A stretch of 64,000 nucleotides of DNA, from contig CAILNX010000022.1 of the NCBI GenBank assembly GCA_903835685.1, forward strand, positions 1 to 64,000, read 5' to 3'. Both the position numbers and the translations under genes were made by a program. Origin of the DNA: an uncultured delta proteobacterium. GTDB taxonomy: Bacteria > Desulfobacterota > Desulfovibrionia > Desulfovibrionales > Desulfovibrionaceae. Positions 1,814-8,875 of the stretch are shown here, one piece after another (within the stretch, counting starts at the first letter, position 1; each line of letters opens with the position of its first letter). The notes below the pieces were generated by a model. That model made no database searches. It worked only from the letters and a program-made list of their open reading frames with translations, and was not told the origin of the DNA.

Positions 1814-1957
1814 CCCCCCCATTTTCTGCTTGACAACGCCTTTGATGACCCGGCGCTTTTATGGTCACAACTACCGGTGATCGAGGGGTGGGTACCCTGG
1901 CTGTACCCTAGCTCTACCCTATCCCAGGGGTGCTCTGGCGTGAGGGTCATTTTTTCC
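1814..1957 (+). repeat. 144-bp effector leader repeat, copy A
   Basis: This block matches 3613-3756 at all but about seven positions, without gaps. Each copy lies a similar distance upstream of one of the two MDYWL genes (about 84 bp here, about 142 bp for copy B). Inside are three TACCCT hexamers at 1893, 1904 and 1915, spaced exactly 11 bp apart, i.e. on about one DNA face. That suggests a protein-binding array. A TTGACA hexamer sits near 1829 but no convincing -10 follows it. The block has no coding potential; its regulatory role is inferred. Confidence 0.8.
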
Positions 1958-2040
1958 ATCCTACCAAAATATACATCGAGCGGCATACGGCGAGGCCTGC
2001 GTATTTCCAAAAAACACGAGACAACCCTCAGGAGCGCGAC

Positions 2041-2961
2041 ATGGACTATTGGCTGCAAGGATCAAACAGCGGAAACGACGAGGACACGACCCAGGGTACC
2101 GGCCAGGACACGGGCCTGGGCGGCAATGGCCTCATGGACTGGGGCGGGCCTGCGGATACGTTGCCCCCCAAACCCGCAAGAGAGAAGACCCTGGGCGAGT
2201 GGCTCTACCCGGACATGAAGCCCACCCAGGGGTATGGCGGGCCAGGCGACGCCGGGGACGGCGAAGGCTCTGGCCTTGGGTCCGGCAACAAGCGGCGCCG
2301 CGTATCCGCCGCCGGGTTCGACATCGACACCGGGGAGTATGTCGGCCCGGATCGCTACACCCCCATCGGCTTCAACCCGGACACCGGCGAGCCCATCATG
2401 CCCGGGCAGGACCCGGCCCCGGGCAACGAGCCCGAGCCCCTGTACATCCCCCAGGTACTGAAAGACAAACACCCAGCCGCCCGGGTGCTCTGGGCCGTGC
2501 AGACCGGGCAGCTTCCGTACCTGAAAGGCCTGCCCGCCATTGACGAGAACGGGGGGCTGCATCCGGCCTATGCCCGGGCCGTAGGGGGTGGAGAAGAGAC
2601 TTCTGTCTCAGAATATTCCACGCCCTCCCCGCTGAAGAACGCGCAAGACTTCTTCGGGGGTTGCGGTGATTTCGTCCGCAACTATAATGACATGCGAGAG
2701 GCAAACACCATAGGAGCGGATAAATACTTCCATTGCAAAGCCAACTGCGAGGCGACTCAAAGAGGGCCGGGCGGTCGAGCGGCTTCCATCTTGCTCGGTG
2801 AAGGGCGCGAGTATGTGGATGAATACATCAAGGGGGACTCTCGGGAAGAGTGCGACGCCGACCGCGCAGCGAACAGACTCGGCCGGGAGGGCGATCCAGA
2901 TCTGACCTGTGAGGATATTTGCTCCCCTGTACGCCCACCTGCGCTGGATGAAAAGTATTGA
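2041..2961 (+). CDS. Modular effector-like protein with MDYWL/GEWLYP N-terminus and Rhs-toxin-like C-terminal domain
   Basis: The 306-residue protein has no signal peptide. Residues 1-60 (MDYWLQG...PAREKTLGEWLYPDMK) match the start of the gene at 3899 almost motif for motif. Residues 60-130 are a Gly/Pro-rich linker. The last 90 residues carry GADKYFHCKANCEA, a six-Cys segment and CSPVRP. From memory, a similar domain occurs at the C-terminus of some Rhs-family polymorphic toxins; its activity is unknown to me. I chose the ATG at 2041 because it has GGAG upstream and aligns with the paralogue. The next gene is a candidate immunity partner. The toxin role is inferred. Confidence 0.65.
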   Translation: MDYWLQGSNSGNDEDTTQGTGQDTGLGGNGLMDWGGPADTLPPKPAREKTLGEWLYPDMKPTQGYGGPGDAGDGEGSGLGSGNKRRRVSAAGFDIDTGEYVGPDRYTPIGFNPDTGEPIMPGQDPAPGNEPEPLYIPQVLKDKHPAARVLWAVQTGQLPYLKGLPAIDENGGLHPAYARAVGGGEETSVSEYSTPSPLKNAQDFFGGCGDFVRNYNDMREANTIGADKYFHCKANCEATQRGPGGRAASILLGEGREYVDEYIKGDSREECDADRAANRLGREGDPDLTCEDICSPVRPPALDEKY

Positions 2962-3756: not shown

Positions 3757-3898
3757 TCTCCATAGTGGTCGCAAGTCGAAAGGTTGCCCGGACCACGGGC
3801 CCGGCCCTCGCGCCGCGCGGGCCGAGAATATTCGGCATGCGGTATGTGGCACGGTATTTTTATTGTCAAAAGCGCGAAAAAGTCTTAAGGAGAAAGCC

Positions 3899-4990
3899 AT
3901 GGACTACTGGCTGGACGGACCCAACAACGGAAGCGACGAGGACATGACCCAGGATACTCCCCGGGGCACGGGCCAGGACAAGGCCCAGGGCAGCGGCGGG
4001 ACCTTTGGACAGGATGACGGCGGGCTTATTGACTGGGGCTGGCCGGACCAGACCCCGCCCATCAAGGCTCCCCGGGAGAAGACCCTGGGCGAGTGGCTCT
4101 ATCCGAACATGAAGCAGAGCTTCCTGCGGGACCAGCCCGACGAGGGCGGCGGGTGTTTCGGCACGGGCGGCCGGGAGAGGACCCCGGACCAGCCGCCCTA
4201 CCGGAACATGAAACACTGGAACTCTGAGGGGAGCGGACGGGTCATGGAGTTGTCGGCGCAGTCCGCCTCCGAGGATACGCCCCAGACCCAGGCCGAGCCC
4301 CAGGCCCAGGACTGGACCCCGCCGAACTGGACGCCCCTGGATGTGGACATGCCGCCGAGCCGGTCCCTGTCCCTGCCCACCTCGGACGGGGGCTTGGCCC
4401 CGCGCGCTTGGTCGAACGACGAGGGCGGCGGTGGGGCCACGGACCCCGCGAATCAGGACGGCGGCTTCGACTTCGGGAAGTTCTTCGGCCCGGCCGAGGC
4501 CGAGGCGGGGCAGCAAAAGGAATATCAGTACCCGGTCAACGGCACGGAGGACGAACAGGTGGATCACTTAGCCCGGGTGCTGTACCAGGAAACCGCCGGG
4601 ATGCGGCCACGAGGCATGTATCCGACGAGCGGCCACAACGACCGCACCGAATGGGACTACCAATCCTTTCAGGACTTGCAGGACGCGCGCAAACAGATGG
4701 CCGTGGTGGCCATGCGCAACCCCAAGGTGGGGAAGTTGGAGGGAGAGCCGAGCGACCGGCTCATATGGGAGGAATGCCAGGCGGCAGCCAGGGAGGGCAG
4801 GGCCATGGCCCAGGACGTACCCGGGAACGTGAGCAATTATTACATGGTTCAGCGGGGCATGGAGCCTAAAAACCAGCCCAGATGGAGCTATGACAACACG
4901 CTGGCCCAGGAATTTGGCCCCTTCTGGAGTGGACCCAGAGGGGGAATCCCCGAAGGCGATAATGCTTTCATCCGAATTCACAAACATTAG
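3899..4990 (+). CDS. Modular effector-like protein, MDYWL/GEWLYP N-terminus, putative cell-wall hydrolase C-terminus
   Basis: The 363-residue protein has no signal peptide. Residues 1-75 repeat the pattern of the 2041 gene: MDYWLDGPNNG, DED, TQ, GQD, DWG and REKTLGEWLYPNMK. A long low-complexity Gln/Pro/Gly linker follows to about residue 215. The C-terminal 150 residues begin EQVDHLARVLYQETAG and later contain QMAVVAMRN. The spacing is loosely like SleB/CwlJ-type hydrolases, where the Glu would be catalytic, but I rate that assignment weak. I chose the ATG at 3899 because it has AAGGAG and aligns with the paralogue. Two duplicated exported proteins follow. An antibacterial effector role is inferred. 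Confidence 0.6.
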   Translation: MDYWLDGPNNGSDEDMTQDTPRGTGQDKAQGSGGTFGQDDGGLIDWGWPDQTPPIKAPREKTLGEWLYPNMKQSFLRDQPDEGGGCFGTGGRERTPDQPPYRNMKHWNSEGSGRVMELSAQSASEDTPQTQAEPQAQDWTPPNWTPLDVDMPPSRSLSLPTSDGGLAPRAWSNDEGGGGATDPANQDGGFDFGKFFGPAEAEAGQQKEYQYPVNGTEDEQVDHLARVLYQETAGMRPRGMYPTSGHNDRTEWDYQSFQDLQDARKQMAVVAMRNPKVGKLEGEPSDRLIWEECQAAAREGRAMAQDVPGNVSNYYMVQRGMEPKNQPRWSYDNTLAQEFGPFWSGPRGGIPEGDNAFIRIHKH

Positions 4991-5005: not shown

Positions 5006-5599
5006 ATGAAACGATCACGGGCAACGCTCTTCATATTGTTTTGGTTCTGCTTCCTCTCATTGCCTACCCTGGCCTGCGAGGATGACTTTCTGACCAGAAT
5101 GCGAGTCCAGCACCTCGGGCTGTTGTGCGATCTGGGGGACTCGACGTATGTCTTTGAGGAACTGGCCAAAACCCCCGAAAAAGCCCTTTGCGCCTTGGTG
5201 AGGCAACTCAAGCCCACGGCGGAAAGGATCGTCCGGGTCCAGGAGTGGGACAATAAGCTCCAGGCTACGAACCAGGTCTGGCGCATGCGCGCCCTGCGGT
5301 TTTTGACCTGCGGAATGGTGGAGTTCTCCGCCTTCACCCGGATGAGGCCGCAAAAAGAGGCCAAGGAGTCCGAGCAGTATTGGCGGTTTGCCGGGGGGGC
5401 GGACGCTGTGGGGAAAAAGCCGGGGGAGATGGTGGAGGTCTGGTTCTCTCACACCCGGATGTCCACGGCGACCGACTACCTCGCGCCCGTCGAGGCCCAG
5501 AAGGACATCATCCGCCAGTGGCGCGAATGGCTGGTCAAAAACGGCACCAATGCGGGTTGCAGGCCCAACGCCACGGATTACAACCAGTGGTGGTTCTAG
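5006..5599 (+). CDS. Exported Cys-rich protein, candidate immunity (copy 1)
   Basis: The 197-residue protein has a signal peptide ending TLA before CEDDF. It is a clear paralogue of the protein at 5724: both contain EDDF, LC..GDS, ELAK.PEKA.CAL, NQVWR.RALRFLTCG and a nearly identical C-terminus with DIIRQWREWLVKNGTNAGC and PNATDYNQW. Several Cys residues are conserved, as expected for a disulfide-bonded periplasmic fold. It starts 15 bp after the putative cell-wall hydrolase gene. I recognise no named family. Periplasmic immunity against that hydrolase is inferred from position, export and duplication. Confidence 0.55.
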   Translation: MKRSRATLFILFWFCFLSLPTLACEDDFLTRMRVQHLGLLCDLGDSTYVFEELAKTPEKALCALVRQLKPTAERIVRVQEWDNKLQATNQVWRMRALRFLTCGMVEFSAFTRMRPQKEAKESEQYWRFAGGADAVGKKPGEMVEVWFSHTRMSTATDYLAPVEAQKDIIRQWREWLVKNGTNAGCRPNATDYNQWWF

Positions 5600-5723: not shown

Positions 5724-6311
5724 ATGAAAAGTCTGGGCGTGACCATATGGATTTTCTTTCTGGCCTGCTCCCTTGTCGGAGCGGCCCAAGTCTGCGAGGA
5801 CGACTTCTCCACTCGGGACAAAGTTAGATATATTGCGATCCTGTGCCAGGCTGGAGACTCTGAGTGGCTCTTCGCCGAACTGGCCAAACAACCAGAAAAA
5901 GCTATTTGCGCCCTGGTGAAGCAACTCAACGCAACAGAAGTGAAGGAGATTGGGCGCGGGGAATGGCGGAAGAAGACCGAGGCCAAGAACCAGGTCTGGC
6001 GCATCCGCGCACTGCGTTTTCTGACCTGCGGCCAGGATTTCACCGCCACAATCCCCTACAGGCCGGACAAGAAAAAGGACCCCGAGGACTATTGGTACTG
6101 GGTGTCCGGCGAGGGGACCTGGACCAGCAAGCCGGGCGATCCGGTCGAGGCCAGGTTCTTCCACACCTGGATGTCCCGGGACATCGACTACATAGCCCCC
6201 GTCGAGGCCCAGAGAGACATCATCCGCCAGTGGCGGGAATGGCTGGTCAAAAACGGCACCAACGCGGGATGTGCGCCCAATGCCACGGATTACAACCAAT
6301 GGTACTTCTAG
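5724..6311 (+). CDS. Exported Cys-rich protein, candidate immunity (copy 2)
   Basis: The 195-residue protein is a tandem paralogue of the gene at 5006. Its signal peptide (MKSLGVTIWIFFLACSLVGAAQV) precedes CEDDF. The C-terminal 45 residues are almost identical between copies while the middle diverges, as expected when copies track different variants of one partner. The stop shares CTAG with the stop of the convergent MetE-like gene, so the two genes overlap by 4 bp. The function is inferred only from context. Confidence 0.55.
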   Translation: MKSLGVTIWIFFLACSLVGAAQVCEDDFSTRDKVRYIAILCQAGDSEWLFAELAKQPEKAICALVKQLNATEVKEIGRGEWRKKTEAKNQVWRIRALRFLTCGQDFTATIPYRPDKKKDPEDYWYWVSGEGTWTSKPGDPVEARFFHTWMSRDIDYIAPVEAQRDIIRQWREWLVKNGTNAGCAPNATDYNQWYF

Positions 6312-7468
6312 GCGTACTTCTCCCGCAACATCCGCGCGGCCTGGGCGATGCTTGTGATCTTGGCCGTGGCGATCTCCTCCACGTTCACGCAGCGGTTGGC
6401 GAAGCAGCCGAACCCGCAGTCGGTGTTCAGGAAGAGCTGGTCCGGGCGATAGTAGACCAGGGCCTTTTCCACCTGGGCCACGATCTCCTCCGGGGTCTCG
6501 ACTTCGACCGTGCGGGGATTGACCACGCCCAGGCCGAGTTCCTGGCCGCTTAAGGCCTTGCCCACCACGGCCACGTCCCCGGCCCGCTCGGTGGCGTACT
6601 CCAGCACGAACTGGTCCACGTGCATGCGGGTGAGCGCGGGCAAAAGCGGGGCGTAGTCCCCGCGCAGGAGCACGTCCTCGCGGGTGCTCCAGTTGCCCCG
6701 GCAGATGTGGATGCCGATGCGCGGCTTGCGCTTGGTGGGCAGGTCCTTGATGACCCGGTTGATGAGTTCGGCGGCAAAGAGCAGTTCAGCACCCGCGTCC
6801 CGGCGGGTGGCCAGGGTGGCTCACATGAAGGTTCGGCGGCCGCACTCCTGGCTCATGACGATCTCGGTGAGCACCGGCTCGTCGAATTGCACGAACTCGC
6901 ACCCGGCCTCGGCCAGATCGATCAACTCCTCGCGCAGGATGCGCACCACGTCGTCGGCCATGGATTTGTGGTTGCGGTAGGCCTTCTTGGTGTAACTGGT
7001 GACGTACATGGACCGGGAGAGCAGGTAGGGGCCGGGCAGGGTCATCTTCACCGGCTTGTCCGTGAGGGACTTCACGAAATGGAAGTCGTCCAGGGCCAGG
7101 GGCTCGCGCCGGGACAGCCGTCCCACGCAAGTCGGGTTGCGGATGGCCGAGGCGGGCACGTCCAGGGTGGTCAGCATTTCCTCGAACCCGGACTTGTCCT
7201 CCACCTCGTCGAGCATTTCGGCCAGGGACATGAGCTTGGTCCCGGCCACCTTTTCGGTGATGAAGGAATAGAAGTTGTCCCTCCGGTGCTCCCCGTCCAC
7301 CAGCAGGTCCAGCCCGGCCTCCTCCTGGATGCGCACGGTGCGGCGCACCTCCTCGTCGGCCACAAGGTCGAACTCGGGCCGGGTCATCTGCCCGAGGCGG
7401 CGGTCGCGCAGGGCTCTCAGCATGGTCTTGGACCGGGGCCAACTGCCCACCTGGGTCGTGGTAAACAT
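6308..7468 (-). CDS. Core-MetE-like methionine synthase (COG0620 type), predicted selenoprotein
   Basis: One reading frame of 387 codons is interrupted only by TGA at 6821-6823 (codon 216). Both sides are clearly one protein: MFTTTQVGSWPRS at the N-terminus, then FDEPVLTEI before the TGA and IHICRGN, VLEYA and NTDCGFGC after it. The four residues expected to bind catalytic zinc in MetE (His and Cys of HIC, Glu, the late Cys) are all present. It lacks the MetE N-terminal half, so it resembles the folate-independent core-MetE group, which takes methyl groups from other donors. Reading TGA as selenocysteine gives 386 residues. It starts 2 bp after the TusA-OsmC gene. Confidence 0.75.
6790..6809 (-). 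promoter_or_regulatory. Candidate bacterial SECIS hairpin (MetE-like gene)
   Basis: The stem starts exactly 11 nt after the TGA. It is a perfect 7-bp CACCCGC/GCGGGUG helix with the six-base loop CGGGAC, which contains the GG expected in the apical loop. The spacing matches the 11-nt gap before the upper stem in E. coli fdhF. It has no bulged U, unlike the classical element. Confidence 0.6.
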
Positions 7469-7470
7469 GG

Positions 7471-8220
7471 TTACACCACCGCGAATTTTAAGGTGAGTTC
7501 CGTGGCCTTGGCCAGGGTGGCGGCCAGCGGCGAGGCGGCCACGGTCTTTTCCCAGACCTCCTTGGCCCGGGCCTCGTCGTCCAGGGTGGAGGCGAAGCAC
7601 TTGACCTCAATGGCCGCGAACGAGGGGTCGCCCTGCTCCAGGCCCATCTGGGCCAGGACGTTCACCAGCCGTCCCCGGGCGGTGATCTCCACATCGTCCA
7701 TGGCCAGTCCGGCCCGGGCGCAGCTGGTGGCAAAGGCCGTGCACAGATCGGCCGAGAGCGCGCCGAGCAGGTATTCCACGGCGCTGGGGTGGCGGTCCTT
7801 TTCTTCGAAGCTGGCGCTCTGGCCCACGTCAAAGGAGAAGTTGCGGCAGTACACCGTGCTTTTCAGCGAGCCCGAGGACCGGGTGCGCAGCCGCCACTCG
7901 TAGCCCTTGGCCCGCTCCTTGTCCTTGGCCAACTCCTGATTCTCGGCAACAGCGGCAGGTCCTTGCCCCCGGCGCACGAAATAACGGGTGACGCGGCTTC
8001 CCTGGCCCGGCAGGCTGCCCAGGAATTCGTGCCCGGCCATGCGGCACCAGGGCGGCAGGTCGTCGGCCACGGTCGGTTCGCTGGAGCGCATCTCCAGCAC
8101 CCCGCCCGCCGGGGTCTTCATCATGTGTTCGCGGATGAGCAGGACCAAGCCGGACCCGCAGTCCAGGTCGCCGCCGTCCAGGACCTGGTCCGGGGTCAGG
8201 TCCGCAAGATCAAGGGACAC
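7471..8220 (-). CDS. TusA-like / OsmC-like fusion protein
   Basis: The 249-residue protein has two domains. Residues 15-75 are TusA/SirA-like (DGGDLDCGSGLVLLIREHM, then PPWCRMAGHEF), with the Cys at the position of the sulfur-carrier cysteine. Residues 100-245 are OsmC-like, with PSAVEYLLGALSADLCTAFAT and paired reactive Cys candidates. Such proteins handle persulfides or peroxides (family knowledge). The GTG start lies 3 bp past the DsrE stop without a clear ribosome site, so translational coupling is likely. Context suggests it passes sulfur or selenium, or protects thiols, next to the MetE-like enzyme. Confidence 0.75.
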   Translation of the reverse strand: MSLDLADLTPDQVLDGGDLDCGSGLVLLIREHMMKTPAGGVLEMRSSEPTVADDLPPWCRMAGHEFLGSLPGQGSRVTRYFVRRGQGPAAVAENQELAKDKERAKGYEWRLRTRSSGSLKSTVYCRNFSFDVGQSASFEEKDRHPSAVEYLLGALSADLCTAFATSCARAGLAMDDVEITARGRLVNVLAQMGLEQGDPSFAAIEVKCFASTLDDEARAKEVWEKTVAASPLAATLAKATELTLKFAVV

Positions 8221-8223
8221 GAA

Positions 8224-8589
8224 TTAATACGCCACGCAGGGAGAGCCGTTGGACAGCCATTCCACCAGGGCCGCGCCGCCGGCCGGGGTGGCCCCTTCGA
8301 TCAAGTCCGTCTCGGAGAGCCCGCGCTTCTTCAGGCAGGGGGTGCACACGTAGATCTTGCCGCCAGCGGCCACGTACTTGCCGATCAGCTCTTTCAAGGG
8401 GGCAAAGGGAGCGCCCTCGTTGATCTTTTCCGCCTCGCCCTTGATGGCGCAGTACACCCCGTCGGTGCTCAGGAAAACCATGGTCTCTTTCTCGCTCCCG
8501 AGCGCGGCGTTGGCCACCACGAAGCCCAGGGTGGCCTTGTCTCCGTCGGTGCGGCAGTGGGTGATGGTCACGCAGAAGGTCTTGGACAT
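8224..8589 (-). CDS. DsrE-family sulfur-relay protein
   Basis: The 121-residue cytoplasmic protein begins MSKTFCVTITHC. It shows a DsrE/TusD-like fold pattern: FVVANAALGSEKETMVFLSTDGVY and later GGKIYVCTPCLKKRGL, whose CTPC is the likely persulfide-carrying site. I chose the ATG at 8587-8589 because AAGGAG stands 7 bp upstream; the longer in-frame start is not needed. It lies between two TusA-like genes in one operon, as expected for a sulfur-transfer relay. Confidence 0.8.
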   Translation of the reverse strand: MSKTFCVTITHCRTDGDKATLGFVVANAALGSEKETMVFLSTDGVYCAIKGEAEKINEGAPFAPLKELIGKYVAAGGKIYVCTPCLKKRGLSETDLIEGATPAGGAALVEWLSNGSPCVAY

Positions 8590-8593
8590 GGGG

Positions 8594-8875
8594 TCACTCC
8601 TTGGCGAGCTGAGGTTTGTAGACAATGAGATAGAAGGGATGGGCCGCTTCCAGCATGGGGTTCTCGGTCATGCGGCACCAGGCCGCGAACTCCACGGGCG
8701 CGGCCGAATCCCTGGAGATGACCAGGATGCGGCTGCCCGGGGGCATGGGTTTCAAGTAGGTGTACAGATTGATGATCACCCGGCCGCAGGTCTCTTCCCC
8801 GCCGTCGAACTCGTCGTCGAATTCCCAATGGTCGGGCCAATGGTCATGAGAGGTGTCGCGCAAGGGCTGGGACAT
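8594..8875 (-). CDS. TusA/SirA-like sulfur-carrier protein
   Basis: The 93-residue protein has LYTYLKPMPPGSRILVISRDSAAPVEFAAWCRMTENPML, the pattern of the TusA/SirA fold. The family's usual early CPxP cysteine motif is not obvious; GEETCGRVI may supply the thiol. The ATG at 8873-8875 follows AGGGGAAATCCGGC and is preferred to an upstream in-frame ATG at 8938. It is the first gene of the minus-strand operon and is preceded by a large palindrome. Confidence 0.65.
   Translation of the reverse strand: MSQPLRDTSHDHWPDHWEFDDEFDGGEETCGRVIINLYTYLKPMPPGSRILVISRDSAAPVEFAAWCRMTENPMLEAAHPFYLIVYKPQLAKE

Follow-up and report, generated by a model that had tools for sequence, protein, structure and literature searches.

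Sulfur carriers of the TusA and DsrE types act as partners in YedF, a protein linked to selenium use, and in the YTD (YedE-TusA-DsrE) cluster, which is linked to sulfur disproportionation. Methionine synthases reduced to a single catalytic unit have also been described, and both the MesA-MesD enzymes (PMC7857596; MesD structure 3RPD) and the core-MetE of Dehalococcoides (PMC7005905) consist of one Meth_synt_2 barrel without a folate domain. In E. coli MetE, zinc is bound by H641, C643, E665 and C726, and homocysteine is held by S433, E484 and D599 (PMC7857596). Prokaryotic selenoproteins, of which 119 families have been tabulated, share an in-frame UGA with a bSECIS hairpin, cysteine-containing homologues and the presence of selenocysteine (Sec) machinery (PMC13188914). 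The locus described here has features in common with each of these systems and lies in a window of 64,000 nucleotides, i.e., the whole stretch of DNA analysed (GenBank assembly GCA_903835685.1, contig CAILNX010000022.1, positions 1 to 64,000), from an uncultured delta proteobacterium of the Desulfovibrionaceae. We identify its product as a selenoprotein of a distinct core-MetE subfamily that works with TusA partners, and we give this identification, detailed mechanism excluded, a probability of about 0.88.

The gene, hereafter SecMetE, occupies positions 7468 to 6308 of the minus strand and runs from ATG to TAG in a single frame of 387 codons, the sole break being a TGA at codon 216 (6821-6823, minus strand), which we take as selenocysteine. 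Read through, it yields a product of 386 aa with Sec at residue 216. The original prediction, made from the sequence alone, had recognised two halves in one frame parted only by this TGA, and that description stands, on the minus strand. The read-through protein lies well over the curated cut-off of PF01717 (Meth_synt_2, the catalytic domain of cobalamin-independent methionine synthase; E 1.3e-35), and the whole genome contains no other match to this model, the single one having one TGA within it. The assignment is further supported by homologues and by the fold match described below.

Homologues were sought in a set in which each bacterial and archaeal species is represented by one genome, yielding 49 related loci, 44 of which cover codon 216. 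The codon is TGA in all 44, which span many genera and two phyla (Desulfobacterota and three Bacteroidota); its context, RRTFM-U-ATLATR, is nearly invariant, and homology continues on both sides. A search of 59 relatives recovered nine complete or partial copies, that of the window counted, each with exactly one TGA, while a phylum sample of 395 genomes added one further Sec form and five Cys forms; a sixth Cys form is located on a Paracoccus plasmid. Carriers available in culture include Desulfopila aestuarii DSM 18488, Desulfobulbus alkaliphilus DSM 24258 and Fundidesulfovibrio agrisoli. Cysteine occupies the column of codon 216, within the motif TFMC or SFMC, in six of six more distant homologues (L097 and L099-L103). 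The expectation that an alignment of homologues might reveal Cys or TGA at this codon is thus fulfilled in every homologue that could be compared. In the tree, Sec forms make up one clade that includes the three Bacteroidota (support 97/98); the placement of long branches is uncertain. As a separate observation, one Desulfonatronum MAG (L043:2300-3004 and L059) has a TusA-like gene running straight into what is left of a MetE gene, from about residue 207 onward and with the TGA and the hairpin retained, reflecting either a deletion or an assembly join.

The published bSECIS model requires a stem of 4-16 bp and a loop of 3-9 nt, a UGA-to-loop distance of 16-37 nt, an MFE <= -7.5 kcal/mol and a G as the first or second nucleotide of the loop, with G or U after it in most cases (PMC13188914). 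All these constraints are met by the window hairpin (6790-6809, minus strand), which starts 11 nt after the TGA, pairs 6803-6809 with 6790-6796 in a perfect 7-bp stem, has a 6-nt loop, CGGGAC, opening with C-G-G 18 nt after the TGA, and reaches -14.3 kcal/mol. Both the hairpin that had been noticed at the outset, with its 7-bp stem, its GG in the loop and its 11-nt spacing, and the SECIS check proposed for it (against the constraints of PMC13188914) are therefore borne out. Shuffling this hairpin alone gives a z of only -0.96, which is not unusual, so that it is the comparative test that carries weight. Among 48 distinct sequences, third bases are constrained over codons +5 to +10, and the stem codons hardly vary in their silent bases (ACC for Thr in 47/48, CGC for Arg in 45/48, GCG for Ala in 30/32); the four- and six-fold codons that flank the stem vary freely. 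The loop arginine is always CGG, CGT or, once, AGG, which retains G followed by G or U. Covariation from C-G to U-A occurs at columns 18/37 in seven sequences, and a G-C to G-U wobble occurs at columns 23/32 in fifteen sequences, where Ala becomes Val. With synonymous codons reassigned from the same gene (500 runs), 191±6 of 336 stem pairs are formed (maximum 211), versus 301 of 336 observed. The hairpin is maintained by selection on synonymous sites. The three Bacteroidota have hairpins that are weaker or of another arrangement, L037 having a stem of only 5 bp and its loop G in a late position, and L038 and L039 having bulges. An Rfam scan of the SecMetE gene returned chance matches only, all under gathering scores.

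Of the 32 long ORFs in the window, 17 end in TGA, which makes it the commonest ordinary stop codon there, and one might suppose that codon 216 is a real stop, leaving two separate half-proteins or a decaying gene. This supposition has to contend with the presence of exactly TGA at each covering locus with the frame intact on both sides, with invariant zinc ligands encoded downstream, with Cys in the homologues and with a hairpin under selection, and we judge it extremely improbable. A suppressor or an altered code could also place a different residue at the TGA, or the TGA could be a sequencing error; no supporting evidence was found for this, independent assemblies agree on the TGA, and the use of TGA as a normal stop in the window implies that the genetic code has not been reassigned. 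Moreover, the genome has the full Sec machinery, encoding SelA, SelB, tRNA-Sec and SelD, so that the suggested search for selA, selB, selC and selD met with all four, and decoding as another residue or a sequencing error can be practically dismissed. Conservation rules out a pseudogene, a sequencing error and code reassignment as explanations of the TGA. Sec insertion at codon 216, for which no protein or selenium-labelling data exist, is a conclusion that we hold with very high confidence. Ribosomes would read the UGA as selenocysteine under the direction of SelB and of the hairpin, whose loop is the 18 nt downstream given above. The SelD frame of the same genome (G000:C43:153392-154312) has an in-frame TGA as well, and SelD is for this reason probably a selenoprotein too.

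The AlphaFold2 model of SecMetE (mean pLDDT 86, pTM 0.89, with a mean pLDDT of only 62 in block 211-220) matches the MetE and MesD structures along its whole length, 3rpd (MesD) giving Z 37.6 and rmsd 2.4 over 321 residues. Residues H254, C256, E290 and C351, together with S9, E60 and D196, correspond to the zinc and homocysteine residues of E. coli MetE and are invariant in 29 aligned members. The predicted zinc ligands are His254 (6707-6709), which forms an HxC with Cys256 (6701-6703) equivalent to H641/C643 (PMC7857596), Glu290 (6599-6601) and Cys351 (6416-6418), all on the minus strand. The original prediction had conserved motifs with the four ligands continuing on both sides of the TGA; the four are present, but all lie downstream and none upstream, where the homocysteine-binding S9, E60 and D196 are found. 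It had also placed Sec about 30 residues before the zinc HxC, a figure that must be corrected to 38 residues from Sec216 to the HxC histidine. Its designation as core-MetE-like is right for the fold and the active-site residues: the PF01717 score above cut-off, the barrel fold and the zinc HxC, E and C all satisfy membership, and among the core-MetE (Meth_synt_2) zinc barrels the Sec and Cys forms make up a subfamily of their own.

In the AlphaFold2 model, Sec216 falls in a loop after strand 192-196 (FVQFD, which holds D196) and before helix 225-240. Because this loop follows the DEP strand of the TIM barrel, Sec216 can be assigned to the catalytic side, an inference from the fold without a measured distance, which puts Sec beside the predicted active site. 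Four further cysteines, C114, C190, C209 and C355, are invariant in Sec forms alone. C209 (6842-6844, minus strand), seven residues before Sec in a C-x6-U arrangement and present in 24/24 Sec forms and 0/5 Cys forms, is a possible redox partner of Sec216, and C355 (6404-6406, minus strand) comes four residues after the zinc ligand Cys351. These cysteines suggest, without proof, that the gain of Sec may have been accompanied by a thiol or redox role.

SecMetE is the last gene of an operon, not remarked in the original prediction, whose order is TusA–DsrE–TusA::OsmC–SecMetE, all on the minus strand. The first gene encodes a TusA-like protein (8594-8875; Pfam TusA E 3e-4, below the curated cut-off) and the second a DsrE-family protein with a CxxC motif (8224-8589; Pfam DsrE E 1.4e-16), the start of each being an internal ATG of our choice; the third, directly upstream of SecMetE, encodes a TusA::OsmC fusion (7471-8220) in which OsmC is above the Pfam cut-off and TusA just below it. 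All three are conserved in position. The comparison of operons was made by tblastn with the window's own neighbours, ORF-neighbourhood clustering being confounded by shadow ORFs in GC-rich loci, and it revealed the three sulfur-carrier genes immediately upstream of SecMetE, with order and orientation unchanged, in 38 loci, the window included. No locus with sufficient flank lacks the operon, and this holds for Bacteroidota too. Among the Cys forms, the Paracoccus protein (L097) and L112 have open frames that join a TusA domain to the MetE-like enzyme, TusA is directly upstream of the MetE-like gene in L113, and an OsmC gene lies next door in L109-L111, with a rhodanese gene too in at least L109 and L111. 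Conserved gene order and fusion, the latter a Rosetta-stone inference, are strong evidence for a functional link between SecMetE and TusA, and a direct partnership of the two appears probable. Between DsrE and TusA::MetE in Paracoccus (L097:2505-4589) lie genes for two membrane or exported proteins that are uncharacterised and match nothing in Pfam or NCBIfam. Elsewhere in the window (1930-2961, 3863-4990, 5006-5599 and 5724-6311) there are two paralogous ORF pairs with similar intergenic DNA, in which the long ORFs have a common leader, DYWL...EKTLGEWLYP, and the small secreted proteins are alike along their length; these are possibly secreted effector/immunity-like arrays.

The original prediction pointed out that core-MetE proteins form folate-independent methionine synthases, and the selenoprotein could be a plain core enzyme of the Mes type, receiving its methyl group from a corrinoid protein with TusA, DsrE and OsmC as mere neighbours. 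The invariance of the four zinc ligands and of the S/E/D homocysteine residues is in keeping with this, as is a best fold match to the MesD structure, which was solved with selenomethionine. However, SecMetE meets none of the curated methionine-synthase models (NCBIfam, June 2026) at cut-off, the best equivalog scoring 181 bits versus a cut-off of 406, and our tree does not include MesA-D. Full MetE (TIGR01371) is not met either, with 107.9 bits versus 929.95 for a one-barrel protein of 386 aa that lacks the N-terminal folate-side domain. A MetH-type homocysteine methyltransferase is encoded in the genome, so that methionine production by SecMetE is not obligatory, and sulfur-carrier partners accompany the gene wherever the flank suffices, with TusA fused in two Cys forms. 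We know of no place for TusA, DsrE or OsmC in methionine synthesis. The methionine synthase function is thus not established, and an ordinary core enzyme seems to us unlikely, if worth keeping in mind.

A different proposal is that the operon serves selenium itself, through demethylation of methylated selenides or selenium delivery, with TusA and DsrE as selenium carriers in the manner of YedF. TusA and DsrE proteins of the YedF kind are linked to selenium (PMC5322559), and the related Mlp proteins of the UroD superfamily act on selenides (PMC10418091). The Paracoccus Cys form adjoins selA, with selB about 11 kb away on the same plasmid, and beside the operon of L112 lies a divergent gene for a selenium-associated LysR regulator that scores above its curated cut-off. 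Nevertheless, these selA and LysR neighbours each occur in one locus only, and the window operon contains no seleno-specific gene. With SelB in 176 of 198 sampled Desulfobacterota, co-occurrence is uninformative in that phylum and was rejected as a sign of selenium function. A dedicated selenium role consequently looks improbable on present evidence, without being negligible; together with the plain core methionine synthase it is the chief alternative to our reading. The LysR of L112 (6050-7078, minus strand) belongs to the selenium metabolism-associated family NF040786. On plasmid pFER4 of Paracoccus ferrooxidans (L122:21407-21976), two adjacent 'hypothetical' genes are probably one UGSC-type selenoprotein split at its TGA; selA, selB and the TusA::MetE (Cys) gene lie in the same plasmid region.

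For the main reading, an enzyme of the core-MetE subfamily that works with TusA, computation has established the operon and the TusA link, the subfamily with its fold and residues, and the conserved Sec codon together with its SECIS; zinc binding, substrate, Sec chemistry and reaction direction are inferred. Since all homocysteine and zinc residues are kept, the bound substrate is likely a homocysteine-like thiol, and thiol or alkyl transfer coupled to TusA-borne sulfur is the likely function, by inference only. In the mechanism that we propose, the zinc of the catalytic centre is expected to hold an amino-acid thiol resembling homocysteine, and the operon partners (TusA-like, DsrE and TusA::OsmC) would carry sulfane sulfur or another thiol-bound group. 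The loaded cysteine of TusA would dock at the mouth of the barrel, where Sec216, partnered by Cys209 or Cys355, might take over or release the chalcogen or methylthio group, and zinc would activate the amino-acid thiol so that an alkyl group or sulfur could be transferred. This specific sequence of TusA docking, Sec216 with a Cys partner and a zinc-activated thiol remains speculative and could well be wrong in its particulars. It is conceivable, and we suggest it only tentatively, that the locus represents an undescribed system in which a Sec/Cys zinc barrel acts directly on the cargo of a dedicated TusA, the transfer of an alkyl (methyl) group on an amino-acid thiol being coupled to a sulfane-sulfur or selenium relay via DsrE and OsmC.

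A Sec form of core-MetE was sought in the literature. Neither MetE nor Meth_synt_2 figures in the 2026 table of 119 prokaryotic selenoprotein families, which also counts those annotated in GenBank (PMC13188914); no Sec core-MetE is among the nine new families of deep-Sep or the families of Haft & Tolstoy 2025 as listed in a review. The literature search found no paper on such a protein; preprints, papers not covered and single GenBank annotations cannot be excluded. SecMetE, almost certainly Sec-containing, is accordingly a selenoprotein family that we have not found described. Annotation pipelines likely split its genes at the TGA because no curated model covers them. As SecMetE matches none of the selenoprotein families that we found in the literature and co-occurs with three sulfur-handling proteins in dozens of genomes, it points to unstudied sulfur or selenium chemistry, and the conserved operon provides a defined set of proteins for testing a new sulfur/selenium pathway in sulfate reducers and their relatives.

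Compared with the systems outlined above, SecMetE has in common with MesA-MesD and the Dehalococcoides core-MetE the single barrel, the zinc ligands and the homocysteine-binding residues. Unlike them, it has Sec or Cys at position 216 in RTFM[U/C], four extra cysteines in the Sec forms and a TusA/DsrE/OsmC operon, and it falls below all curated family cut-offs. The TusA and DsrE partners recall YedF and the YTD cluster, yet yedE does not adjoin and the fusion partner of TusA is OsmC or the MetE-like enzyme; YTD membership is not met, no yedE-like gene being found beside the window operon, where the next genes encode an APH-like kinase and a small secreted protein. The MtaA-like (Mlp) methyltransferases of type 1 MGCs resemble SecMetE in their barrel of the UroD/MetE superfamily, their sulfur/selenium methyl chemistry and their occurrence with Sec machinery; they belong to a different family in corrinoid-linked clusters and, in the part of that source available, are not described as containing Sec (PMC10418091). 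With the known prokaryotic selenoproteins, SecMetE shares the UGA with its bSECIS, the Cys homologues and the Sec machinery, but the characterised ones mostly have a thioredoxin-like fold, whereas SecMetE is a zinc TIM barrel (PMC13188914). It adds to the selenoproteins a family in the zinc-dependent MetE barrel fold class, missing from the 2026 inventory, and this new fold class for Sec implies that Sec may serve thiol/alkyl-transfer chemistry and not only thioredoxin-like redox sites.
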